From contig NZ_CP045422.1 of NCBI RefSeq assembly GCF_014926585.1, forward strand, positions 744,001-808,000: a DNA stretch of 64,000 nt, written 5' to 3'. The translations under genes and the position numbers were made by a program. The notes beneath the pieces were generated by a model, which was not told the DNA's origin, searched no databases, and was given only the letters and a program-made list of their open reading frames with translations. Shown here piece after piece: positions 34,035 through 38,683 of the stretch; position 1 is the stretch's first letter; the number at the start of each line of letters is the position of its first letter. The stretch comes from Devosia beringensis. GTDB lineage: Bacteria; Pseudomonadota; Alphaproteobacteria; Rhizobiales; Devosiaceae.

Positions 34035-34125
34035 GGCGTGGTGATAGTGGCCGGGGGCAAATTGCACAAGCGGGTCGGAAAGGCCGGGCGAACCGCCTAT
34101 ATTGGCGCCTCAGGAGAATCGCCCT

Positions 34126-35970
34126 TTGCCCATCCGCCAGCTACCCGAAGACCTGATCAACCGCATCGCTGCCGGCGAGGTGGTGGAGCGGCCCGCCAGC
34201 GTGGTCAAGGAATTGGTGGAAAATGCCATCGATGCCGGCGCCAACCGGATCGTGGTGACCACGGCGGGCGGCGGCAAGACCCTGTTGCGCATCGAGGATG
34301 ACGGGCACGGCATGGACGAGGCCGATCTGGTGCTGTCGGTGGAGCGGCACGCGACCTCCAAGCTGAGCACTGACGATCTCGACGATATCCGCAGCCTCGG
34401 CTTTCGCGGCGAGGCGCTCGCCTCGATCGGCTCGGTGGCCGAGCTGAGCATCGCCTCGCGCCCGGCCGATGCCGAAAGCGGGCTGGCCATCTCGGTCCGC
34501 AATGGCGTGCGCTCCGGGCCGGTGCCGCAGGCGCTCAACCGGGGCACGGTGGTGGAGGTCAAGAACCTCTTTGCCAATGTCCCTGCCCGGCTCAAATTCC
34601 TCAAGACCGACCGCGGCGAAGCGGGTGCCATTACCGATGTGCTCAAGCGACTGGCGATGGCCAATCCGGGCGTGCATTTCGTACTCAATGGCAGCGACCG
34701 TTCACCCGCCAACTGGCCAGCCGTCAGCGGCACGGGCGCCCTGCCCGCCCGGCTGGCGCAGGTGATCGGCGATGATTTCGCGCAGAACGCGGTGACGCTG
34801 GGGCATAGCCGGCACGGCGTGGTGGTGGCGGGCCTGGCGGGCCTGCCGACCTATACGCGTGCCAATAGCCTCAGCCAGTTCTTCTTCGTCAATGGCCGCT
34901 CGGTGCGTGACAAGGTGCTGGTGGGCGCGGTGCGCGCGGCCTATGCCGATTATATCTTCCGCGACCGCTTTCCGGTGGTGGCGCTCTATGTGGCGATCGA
35001 TCCAGCAGAAGTTGACGTCAATGTCCACCCGGCCAAGGCCGAGTTGCGCTTCCGCGATGGCGGGGCGGTGCGCAGCGCGGTGATAAGGGCGATTGGCGAG
35101 GCCCTGGCGGCAGCAGGCTTCAAGGCCTCGAGCAGCGTGGCCGACGATGTGCTGGGGGCGTTTACCGCGCCCGGCCAGCAACCGGCCACGACACCGCAGG
35201 CGCCGACCGGTTCGCCGTCCGCCTTCCCCTATCGGGCTGCCCAGCCGCTGCCCTTTGCCGGCTATGAGCGGGTCACCGGCACCGGCCGCAGCAACCCATT
35301 CTCGCCCGCTTACGGCCAGGGTGGCCTTGAGGGCCTCAACGAGCCGAGCGCCCGCGTCGAGGCCGAAGCCGACCCCGCTCTGATCGATTTTCCGCTTGGC
35401 ACCGCGCGGGCGCAGATGTTCGACAATTTCATCATCGCCCAGAATGGCGAGGGCCTGCTGCTGGTCGACCAGCACGCCGCCCATGAGCGGCTGGTCTATG
35501 AGCGGTTCAAGGCGCAGCTGGCATCCGGCCCGGTGCCCAGCCAGGCGCAGTTGATCCCGCTGGTGGTAGAGCTGCCCGAGGAGGATTGCGCGCGGCTCGA
35601 AGAGGCCGCGCCGGAACTGGAAAGGTTCGGACTCTATCTCGAACGCTTCGGTCCGCGCGCCATTGCCGTGCGCGAGACCCCGGCTTTGCTGGGCAGTTCG
35701 GACATTGATGGCCTGGTGCGCGATATCGCCGACGGCCTGGCCGAATGGGATTCCATCGCTGCGGTCAGCGATCGCATGGAGGCCATCATCGCCCGCATGG
35801 CTTGCCACGGCTCGGTGCGGTCGGGCCGCCGGCTGCGGGTGGACGAAATGAACGCCCTGCTGCGCGACATGGAAGCAACGCCCCATTCGGGCCAGTGCAT
35901 CCACGGCCGGCCGACCTATGTCGAGCTCAAGCAAAAGGACATCGAGCGGTTGTTCGGGCGGAGTCGTTAA
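34126..35970 (+). CDS. mutL: DNA mismatch repair protein MutL, endonuclease-proficient type
   Basis: A 614-residue MutL. N-terminal GHKL ATPase with INRIAAGEVVERPASVVKELVENAIDAGA and LGFRGEALASI; a Pro/Ala-rich linker (residues about 340-430); and a C-terminal domain with DQHAAHERLVYE, fitting the DQHA-x2-E-x4-E metal motif of endonucleolytic MutL, and GQCIHGRPTYVEL near the end. I chose TTG at 34126 because CAGGAG lies eight bases ahead; a TTG at 34102 is in frame but unsupported. A downstream SOS operator does not control it. Confidence 0.95.
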   Translation: MPIRQLPEDLINRIAAGEVVERPASVVKELVENAIDAGANRIVVTTAGGGKTLLRIEDDGHGMDEADLVLSVERHATSKLSTDDLDDIRSLGFRGEALASIGSVAELSIASRPADAESGLAISVRNGVRSGPVPQALNRGTVVEVKNLFANVPARLKFLKTDRGEAGAITDVLKRLAMANPGVHFVLNGSDRSPANWPAVSGTGALPARLAQVIGDDFAQNAVTLGHSRHGVVVAGLAGLPTYTRANSLSQFFFVNGRSVRDKVLVGAVRAAYADYIFRDRFPVVALYVAIDPAEVDVNVHPAKAELRFRDGGAVRSAVIRAIGEALAAAGFKASSSVADDVLGAFTAPGQQPATTPQAPTGSPSAFPYRAAQPLPFAGYERVTGTGRSNPFSPAYGQGGLEGLNEPSARVEAEADPALIDFPLGTARAQMFDNFIIAQNGEGLLLVDQHAAHERLVYERFKAQLASGPVPSQAQLIPLVVELPEEDCARLEEAAPELERFGLYLERFGPRAIAVRETPALLGSSDIDGLVRDIADGLAEWDSIAAVSDRMEAIIARMACHGSVRSGRRLRVDEMNALLRDMEATPHSGQCIHGRPTYVELKQKDIERLFGRSR

Positions 35971-35996
35971 CGAATCACTCTCGATTCACGGTATCT

Positions 35997-36030
35997 GTTC
36001 ATGCAATGTTCTCTTGAACAAAGAGGGAAC
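35997..36030. promoter_or_regulatory. Two adjacent LexA (SOS) operators
   Basis: GTTC-N7-GTTC at 35997-36011 is the direct-repeat LexA operator known for Alphaproteobacteria. Five bases further, GAAC-N7-GAAC at 36016-36030 is the same operator in the opposite orientation. Both are exact in all eight defining bases. The second ends five bases before the ATG of the 31-codon ORF, so bound LexA would block its transcription or translation start region. Confidence 0.75.
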
Positions 36031-36034
36031 AATT

Positions 36035-36130
36035 ATGCGTGAGGGCGCTATTGGATTTGTTTGGGTGATGTCGTCGAAATTTGTCGGCCGAGCCAACGAT
36101 TGGGCATGGCCAAGGCCATTGCCCGGCTGA
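36035..36130 (+). CDS. Putative SOS-regulated microprotein (31 aa)
   Basis: ATG directly behind the LexA operators, with AGAGGG about seven bases upstream as a possible ribosome site. The peptide has a short hydrophobic stretch (GAIGFVWVM), two basic residues, and three tryptophans (FVWVM, NDWAW), then a Pro-rich end. Codon third positions are less GC-rich than in neighbours. I do not recognise it. By analogy only, Caulobacter has a 29-residue SOS-induced division inhibitor (SidA). It may instead be the start of an untranslated SOS RNA. Confidence 0.4.
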   Translation: MREGAIGFVWVMSSKFVGRANDWAWPRPLPG

Positions 36131-36332: not shown

Positions 36333-36767
36333 ATGCGCATCAGCCTGCTTATCCTGGTCTGCATCCTGTCAGCGACCAGGCCCAGCCTTGCCCAATTTTA
36401 CACCGTGCCCGCGCCCCATGATCCGGGCCGTCCGGCAACAGGCGTGGTTCACGTTCCGGTGGGGAGCGCGGAGGGGCTGCACCAGTTGGAAAGCGCCGCC
36501 TGGCGGGGAGACCGTCGCGCCTCGGCGCTGCTGGCGGCGCTGCTGCAGGACCGGCCGGAGATCGCGGACGGGCTCGTCACATCCGCCCTGCACTTTCAGG
36601 TGGCGATCGCTGCAGGATATACTGATCTGGACGGGCTGAGCGCCCAAGCGGTGGCACGGCTGTCAGCTGAGCAAAGCCTGGCCTACCAGAAGGCGCTGCC
36701 GCTCTGGGTTCCAGAAGGCGGCAGGTCCGTGATGGCCGGCCTCAAAGGGCGATGCCTGACCTGGTAG
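36333..36767 (+). CDS. Hypothetical secreted protein
   Basis: A 144-residue protein with a signal peptide (MRISLLILVCILSATRPSLAQ), so probably periplasmic. The mature part has segments like LHQLESAAWRGDRRASALLAALL and FQVAIAAGYTDLDGLSAQAVARL that suggest helical Sel1/TPR-like packing, but no complete repeat is evident. ATG at 36333 with AGGAA upstream. It lies 202 bp after the SOS micro-ORF on the same strand and could be read from the same transcript. Confidence 0.65.
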   Translation: MRISLLILVCILSATRPSLAQFYTVPAPHDPGRPATGVVHVPVGSAEGLHQLESAAWRGDRRASALLAALLQDRPEIADGLVTSALHFQVAIAAGYTDLDGLSAQAVARLSAEQSLAYQKALPLWVPEGGRSVMAGLKGRCLTW

Positions 36768-36868: not shown

Positions 36869-38683
36869 CTACTGAAACACGCTCGCGCCCTTGTCGGCGA
36901 CGCCGACCATGGCGCGGAAGCCGGCGAAGAGTTCGCGGCCCATGCCGAAATGCTGGCTGGTGAGATCTTCGGTGGCCAGGGGCCGGGCGAAGAATTCGGC
37001 TTCGTCGCCGAGGAAGGTCAGCGTGCCGGCATTGGCGTCCAGCCGGATCATGTCGCCGTCGCGGATGCGGGCGATGGGTCCGCCATTGACCGCTTCAGGC
37101 GTCATGTGGATGGCGGCGGGCACCTTGCCGGAGGCGCCGGACATGCGGCCATCGGTGAGCAGGGCCACCTGGAAGCCGCGATCCTGCAGGATGCCCAAAG
37201 GCGGCGTCAGCTTGTGCAGTTCGGGCATGCCGAGCGCCTTGGGGCCGGAAAAGCGCACCACCGCGATCATATCGCCATTGAGCTGGCCGGCCTTGAACGC
37301 CACCTGCAGCGCTTCCTGGCCGTGGAACACCTTGGCGGGTGCCTCGATGACGCGGTGCTCGGGCTTGACGGCGGAGACCTTGATCACCGAGCGGCCGAGA
37401 TTGCCGCTGAGGAGCTTCAGGCCACCCGTTTCCTGGAAGGGCGTCGCCACCTTGGTCAGCACCTTGGGCAAAGCCGATTCCTTGGGCGAAGCCTCATAGG
37501 CCAGCTTGTCTTCGATCAGCTTGGCTTCCACCGTATAGTTTGAGAGGCCATTGCCCCAGACCGTCTTGACGTCCTCGTGCAGGTGGCCGCTTTCGAGCAG
37601 TTCCTGGATCAGGAAACCCATGCCGCCGGCGGCGTGGAAATGGTTCACGTCGGCCACGCCATTGGGATAGACGCGGGCCAGCAGCGGGGTAGCGTCGCTG
37701 AGGTCGCTCATGTCGTCCCAGGTCACCTGCAGGCCAGCAGCGGCAGCGATCGCGATCAGGTGCATGGTGTGGTTGGTCGAGCCGCCGGTGGCGTGCAGGC
37801 CGACCAGGCCATTGACGATGGCCTTTTCGTCCACGATGTGGCCGACCGGGGTATAGTTGTTGCCCATGGCGCTGAGCGAGAGCGCGCGCACGCTGGCCTC
37901 GCGGGTCAGGGCATCGCGCAAAGGCGTGCCGGGATTGACGAAGCTGGCGCCCGGCAGGTGCAGACCCATGATTTCCATGAGCATCTGGTTGGAATTGGCG
38001 GTGCCGTAGAAGGTGCAGGTGCCGGCCGAATGGTATGACTTGGACTCGGCCTCGAGCAGTTCGGCGCGGCCGACCTTGCCCTCCATATAGAGCTGGCGGA
38101 CCTTGGACTTTTCGTCATTGGGCAGGCCCGAGGGCATGGGGCCGGCGGGCACGAAGACAGCCGGCAGATGGCCGAAGGTCAGCGCGCCGATCAGCAGGCC
38201 CGGGACGATCTTGTCGCAGATGCCGAGATAAACGGCGGCGTCGAACATGTTGTGGCTGAGCGAAATGGCCGTGGCCATGGCAATGACGTCGCGGCTGAAC
38301 AGGCTGAGGTCCATGCCCGGCTGGCCCTGGGTGACGCCGTCACACATGGCGGGCACGCCGCCGGCGACCTGGGCGGTGGCGCCAATGCTGCGCGCGGCTT
38401 CCTTGATGATATCGGGATAGAATTGATAAGGCTGATGGGCGCTCAGCATATCATTATAGCTGGTGACGATGCCCAGATTGAGCGCCTTGCTGCCGGCCAG
38501 CTGCGCCTTTTCGGCGGGGGTGCAGGCAGCAAAGGCGTGAGCGAGATTGCCGCAGGACAGCACCGTGCGGTTGACCCCGGCTTCGCGGGCGCCTTCGAGA
38601 CGGCTCAGATAATCGGCGCGGCTGTCGCGGCTGCGTGCGGCGATGCGATCGGTAACATCCTGGATGGCCTGACGGACAGACAT
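36869..38683 (-). CDS. edd: Phosphogluconate dehydratase
   Basis: A 604-residue iron-sulfur dehydratase of the IlvD/Edd family that makes KDPG from 6-phosphogluconate in the Entner-Doudoroff pathway. Seen: [24 protein letters not shown], the cluster cysteines in [13 protein letters not shown] and [16 protein letters not shown], and [14 protein letters not shown]. Last gene of the kinase-zwf-pgl-edd operon. The aldolase gene (eda) is not in the window. Confidence 0.96.

Follow-up and report, generated by a model that had tools for sequence, protein, structure and literature searches.

In the genome of Devosia beringensis, the interval between mutL and edd probably holds a cassette of the SOS regulon whose original product has been lost. 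This cassette comprises a twin operator for LexA, the decayed remains of an original product gene (gene A), and a second gene (gene B) that would now be the target of the operator. The analysis is based on a stretch of 64,000 nucleotides (hereafter the window), for which a first-pass annotation had reported a twin LexA-type operator that lies 3' of mutL and is not followed by a classical SOS gene. Our findings support that description of the operator, but they do not support the annotation's proposal that a 31-codon ORF immediately downstream encodes a functional SOS microprotein.

A facing pair of LexA-type boxes downstream of mutL

Box 1 (GTTCATGCAATGTTC; 35997-36011, forward strand) is an exact GTTC-N7-GTTC match, and box 2 (GTTCCCTCTTTGTTC; 36016-36030, reverse strand) is likewise exact and faces box 1. 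The first-pass annotation was correct that two exact boxes of the alphaproteobacterial type face each other at 35997-36030 and that they lie in an AT-rich stretch after mutL (the leader, 35971-36034, is 41% GC). However, the gap between the boxes is 4 bases rather than the 5 bases it reported. It also placed an ATG just past the boxes, which is the case, although this start codon of the 31-codon ORF (36035) is located 4 and not 5 bases after box 2, and the Shine-Dalgarno-like sequence AGAGGG (36022-36027, forward strand) resides within box 2. The upstream neighbor is mutL (34102-35970, forward strand; NCBIfam MutL equivalog, over the cut-off), and the convergent downstream neighbor is edd (36869-38683, reverse strand; NCBIfam TIGR01196, over the cut-off).

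One GTTC-N7-GTTC match alone is nearly no evidence in this genome, because the 40 forward and 45 reverse matches compare with 36 and 37 for the reversed control pattern. Similarly, the 2 single boxes in the window compare with 0.90 expected, and 19 of 100 shuffles reach 2. The facing pair is far rarer: with a gap of 0-30 bases the window has one (0 of 100 shuffles), as does the 4.05 Mb genome as a whole, where the control yields 0 matches. With a gap of 3-6 bases, it is present in 7 of 75 Devosia genomes, again with 0 control matches. Three other close box pairs exist in the D. beringensis genome, all with the opposite relative orientation. The two boxes of lexA itself, which are 10 bases apart, are oriented in this opposite manner. 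The pairs at 3318499 and 3645434 (each 5 bases apart) are probably chance occurrences because their spacers fall outside the best 40 by score. The second of these (C1:3645434-3645468, locus L127) consists of back-to-back boxes with GC-rich spacers between divergent ORFs, and possibly arose by chance.

Across the order, the exact twin pattern (gap 3-6) was found in 11 of 397 genomes (G000, G049, G421, G495, five of genus g34, G358 and G466), and a control match was found in 4 of 397. Given this control rate, chance may account for two of the exact twins, those located before other genes in G358 and G466. In genus g34, the operators are near-identical across the five genomes. Twins carrying one mismatch in G029, G065, G122 and G125 were taken as chance matches, because a scan of the same 136 family genomes with the reversed control pattern also yielded 6 matches on each strand.

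The window boxes have the same exact half-sites, spacing and placement just before a start codon as alphaproteobacterial LexA operators, as represented by the Caulobacter consensus in an excerpt of PMC12700426. The two facing boxes separated by N4 set the window apart, because about 97% of Caulobacter SOS promoters carry one box according to the same excerpt, and a twin box is therefore uncommon in that organism.

The operator accompanies a Sel1-repeat gene or its relatives

When gene B was used as a query against 136 genomes of the family, the genomes with a gene A or gene B homolog at E<=1e-5 proved to be the seven operator carriers and no others. An eighth match, in G019, is weak (E 6.5e-4) and its locus has no box, and this genome was not accepted as a carrier of the cassette. 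Among the 75 genomes of the genus, operator and gene are both present in 7 and both absent from 67, which leaves G019 with a weak gene match at most. Both half-sites of both boxes are exact in all seven carriers, with spacers that vary. The AGAGGG sequence itself is present in only 2 of the 7 operators, and a GG before the AAC end of the half-site is present in all of them. Judged from sequence, the two facing LexA-type boxes are real and conserved.

The location of the cassette is also consistent: in 7 of 7 genomes it is flanked by edd on one side and by mutL or a mutL end on the other. Apart from this, the region that follows mutL varies, and 3 of the 30 best-scoring mutL loci show the pair within 700 bases. 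In G052 (locus L138, 2416-3407), the cassette is adjoined by another Sel1 gene and by a degraded second copy of the mutL 3' end, which suggests that the mutL end was duplicated together with a Sel1 gene.

In every carrier the operator resides 4-5 bases before an ATG, which belongs to gene A in three genomes (G020, G041 and G057), to gene B in one, and to a short stub in three. Only the first three keep gene A intact, at 278 codons. The gene A product has a hydrophobic, putative signal-peptide-like start and carries Sel1 repeats (Pfam E 6.9e-27, three stretches) that score above the Pfam cut-off (93.3 bits versus 30.7 for the G020 protein). Its predicted structure, modeled from an alignment of 3 sequences, is an all-helix solenoid (mean pLDDT 86) whose best PDB matches are Sel1 proteins, including HcpC (1ouv). 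A signal-like start and Sel1 repeats are shared with HcpC and with ExoR and RgsF as described in an excerpt of PMC7327166, a likeness at the level of the class alone; gene A differs from these, as far as that excerpt describes them, in standing behind a LexA-type operator.

Sel1 proteins are common in the family, whereas the close gene A group is rare: a match to the gene A profile at E<=1e-10 exists in 135 of the 136 genomes, and E values below 1e-150 are confined to G020, G057 and G041. Among the profile-matched loci judged for boxes (19 of 30), the twin precedes two genes (G020 and G041) and a single box lies near one (G024). The latter was rejected as a Sel1 operator since, by eye, the box precedes a divergent glyoxalase-like frame. 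In G041, the intact gene is followed by another stretch that is similar to the gene A start (locus L136, 1365-1499; 41% over 46 residues, E 5.9e-4). A further locus (L178) matches at 40% over residues 1-165.

LexA is the most likely ligand of the twin boxes

A host-type LexA box lies over the start region, and the boxes are kept together with the gene across relatives, as is expected for a member of the SOS (LexA) regulon. To place the window boxes among others of the same genome, a spacer matrix was built from six boxes at or near lexA (2), recA, uvrA, ssb and rmuC, with the window pair excluded. The boxes of recA and rmuC (one each) are 25-44 bases from the ORF start, and those of uvrA and ssb (one each) are 180 and 214 bases away. 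Of the gene names, lexA, recA and ssb (the last by a subfamily model) pass their cut-offs, and rmuC and the uvrA piece, which is truncated at the end of the locus, score below theirs. Of the 85 boxes in the genome, which include the six training boxes that rank high by construction, box 2 ranks 11 and box 1 ranks 16 by spacer score. In addition, twin boxes with the same 4-base gap precede recA in G421, which belongs to another genus of the order. Because the spacers rank with those of SOS-gene boxes and because of this twin before recA, LexA is the most likely ligand, and it would be expected to bind and repress at this site.

A regulator other than LexA might instead bind the 34-bp palindrome, which would explain why the box 1 spacer ATGCAAT is kept in 6 of 7 genomes, beyond what LexA alone should need, and why the pair of lexA itself is oriented the other way. 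We give this proposal very little credence, because it leaves unexplained both the same layout before recA in another genus and the resemblance of the window spacers to boxes at SOS genes of the same genome. The conserved box 1 spacer may overlap a promoter element.

The 31-codon ORF is best read as a relic of gene A

The ORF at 36035-36130 (forward strand) fits the earlier description of a short, Trp-rich peptide (31 codons, 3 Trp) with codon use unlike that of its neighbors (GC3 of 0.58 versus 0.82 for mutL and 0.77 for gene B). Its origin was evaluated by ungapped alignment of the 66 bases after the ATG, for which 2258 other ATG-started stretches of the window served as controls. Agreement with gene A of G041, G020 and G057 extends to 31, 36 and 33 positions, respectively, compared with control means of 16.5, 16.5 and 17.4. 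These values are reached by 1, 0 and 0 of the 2258 controls, and none equals the ORF when the three gene A 5' ends are summed. At the protein level, 7, 7 and 3 of 22 residues agree, with 1, 0 and 352 controls as good, and thus the protein match to G057 is unremarkable. Alignment with the stub of G058 yields 27 of 66 agreements (7 of 2258 controls as good), and the values for the stub of G052 (18 of 66) and for G049, where gene B occupies this place (20 of 66), are at chance level. Near codon 23, five extra bases are needed in the window sequence to maintain the alignment, and the gene A frame is lost. The first 23 codons are, by this alignment, recognisably the degraded signal-peptide region of gene A.

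The first-pass annotation had also called for a homology search with the 31 residues. Among the 136 family genomes, the best match other than the peptide itself is weak (E 0.024). No membrane-span-like stretch is apparent in the peptide, whose best 19-residue Kyte-Doolittle mean is 0.48. The lack of a family match and of a membrane stretch, together with the lower GC3, fits a decaying sequence. We therefore read the ORF as most probably a relic of gene A that has no microprotein role.

This reading runs counter to the earlier proposal of an SOS-induced microprotein that, like SidA, blocks division from the membrane. SidA of Caulobacter is an SOS-induced division inhibitor of 29 residues residing in the inner membrane (excerpt of PMC4211646), and the window likewise has a LexA-type box before a very short ORF with a good start site directly behind the operator. 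However, in comparison with SidA as that excerpt presents it, the window peptide exhibits neither an inner-membrane segment nor conservation among the 136 genomes. Moreover, the equivalent slots in relatives are occupied by stubs of other lengths and sequences (19 codons in G052, 46 codons in G058), by gene B, or by full gene A, and the ORF is already accounted for as a remnant of the latter. A SidA-like role is for these reasons highly unlikely.

An unconserved ORF behind a conserved operator could also mean that the operator produces an SOS-induced small RNA to which the ORF is incidental. This seems scarcely plausible given that no Rfam match at E<=1 and no terminator-like site were found, and that the seven-genome alignment, inspected by eye, reveals no conserved non-coding block past the operator.

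Gene B is the likely surviving target of the operator

With the 31-codon ORF read as a relic, the candidate target becomes an ORF that the first-pass annotation overlooked. Gene B (36333-36767, forward strand) encodes a Sel1-derived protein of 144 codons with a hydrophobic, putative signal-like start, a linker and a helical domain. This domain is homologous to the C-terminal third of gene A, and identities to the three gene A products are 36, 34 and 28% over their C-terminal part. No Pfam family matched gene B at E<=1, and the Sel1 cut-off was not reached. The structure model has a mean pLDDT of 71, with blocks of 71-95 across the domain. In G049, the operator is located directly before gene B, there a 147-codon relative. 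The window species, G052 and G058 have ORFs of 31, 19 and 46 codons, respectively, behind the operator, and gene B comes after them.

The gene B frame is open in 4 of the 4 genomes that have this gene. Compared with G058, changes by codon position occur at 0.285, 0.292 and 0.486, with dN of 0.37 and dS of 0.89 (dN/dS ~0.4), whereas the mutL C-terminus in the same comparison has dN of 0.03 and dS of 0.80. In three comparisons with the window copy, dN for gene B exceeds the value for the mutL C-terminus by a factor of ~12 to 41, and the identity of gene B to its relatives is 45-55% versus 95.7-98.4% for the mutL C-terminus. Pairwise dN/dS values for gene B are 0.29-0.47; with dS close to 1 or higher, these are rough estimates. 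This substitution pattern indicates that gene B is under some protein-level constraint yet fast-evolving. At one position the window protein carries Tyr where six other aligned sequences have Cys; this loss and the fast evolution suggest that the window copy of gene B may be decaying too.

The possibility must then be weighed that the whole cassette is dead in the window species, with an operator that may still bind LexA, gene A gone, and gene B a functionless, drifting remnant. The relic status of gene A, the fast evolution and lost Cys of gene B, and the patchy distribution (7 of 75 genomes) are all compatible with this scenario. Nevertheless, neither box has lost a half-site, the gene B frame is uninterrupted in all 4 genomes that have the gene, and the pairwise dN/dS of gene B, although rough, remains at 0.29-0.47. 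We consider a dead cassette unlikely, and gene B is the likely surviving target in the window species. Its ATG lies 302 bases past box 2, and no sigma-70-like promoter or terminator consensus was found; because of the latter result, we can only infer that a transcript begun at the operator continues into gene B.

A possible route from DNA damage to the cell envelope

The preferred reading, in which gene B has succeeded gene A behind a LexA operator, can be extended to a tentative mechanism. The original cassette product would have been a Sel1-repeat protein of 278 residues whose start resembles a signal peptide. Upon DNA damage, LexA would cleave itself, and opening of the promoter would allow transcription. 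Where relatives have kept gene A intact, the translated Sel1 solenoid would be exported and, hypothetically, would bind an envelope partner, which could be part of the machinery for division or growth or, as with ExoR, a sensor kinase. Envelope growth or division might in this way be adjusted during DNA repair. In the window species, where gene A appears to have decayed to a 31-codon stub, the operator would most likely drive gene B as a later frame of the same transcript. Precedents for such partners are given in an excerpt of PMC7327166, in which Sinorhizobium ExoR binds the sensor ExoS, and RgsF, with six Sel1-like repeats, is part of a set studied for unipolar growth and division.

The gene A model also matches 5jkp, 6lch and 5jjo. 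These Sel1 structures, named as the immunity proteins PA5087, PA5088 and PA5086, share its fold, and on this basis the Sel1 proteins of the cassette might be orphan immunity-like proteins (compare PA5086-PA5088) that are under SOS control but have no envelope adaptor role. Fast evolution, extra copies, decay, and residence in the variable stretch after mutL would all suit such proteins. Yet other Sel1 proteins give stronger fold matches than these, and we regard an immunity-like function as quite improbable. This alternative contests only the last mechanistic step and otherwise overlaps with the best explanation, an SOS cassette whose Sel1-repeat product is exported.

If an exported Sel1 adaptor is wired into the SOS response, DNA damage would be signaled to the envelope via a secreted protein, unlike the action of a membrane or cytoplasmic division inhibitor. 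Gene decay would then leave short SOS-driven ORFs, one of which (in G058) could become a SidA-like microprotein. We offer this combined proposal as a rather doubtful speculation. The 46-codon stub of G058 has a hydrophobic signal-like segment, with a best 19-residue hydropathy of 1.87.

In the literature searched, Sel1 and LexA co-occur only in genome descriptions that use each word once or twice. Searches for Sel1 with SOS or DNA damage terms gave no occurrence of Sel1 among the matches listed, and those for Devosia with LexA gave none on the Devosia SOS response by title. The cassette is a candidate addition to the SOS regulon, of a known type and not a new kind of system, and would contribute a gene type (a secreted Sel1-repeat protein) for which LexA control does not appear in the literature searched. 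It also presents a natural series behind one conserved operator, from intact gene to truncated relative to stubs of 19, 31 and 46 codons. For microprotein hunts this series is a caution, since a good operator can also stand in front of a short ORF that is what remains of a lost gene.

Other LexA-type boxes

Several other LexA-type boxes were encountered in front of small genes. Small proteins with the motif W-x-G-x-SGR-x-Y are encoded behind such boxes at C1:2107296 of the D. beringensis genome (L099), in L180 (G495) and in L187 (G313), and in G495 (where the motif reads WRGRSGRRY) and L187 the boxes are twins. Within genus g34, an ORF with a similar motif lies right behind the operator in L187, with none listed for the other four genomes. 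Two of these proteins were searched against Pfam and gave no match at E<=0.01; the motif possibly marks a widespread, uncharacterized SOS protein. A small glyoxalase-like gene stands behind a strong LexA-type box both in the D. beringensis genome (L101, C1:2192697; Pfam Glyoxalase E 8e-6) and in G024 (L161). Finally, the box ranked second by spacer score in the D. beringensis genome (L104, C1:2472211) precedes by 154 bases the start of a DUF2200 protein (Pfam E 1.5e-48).
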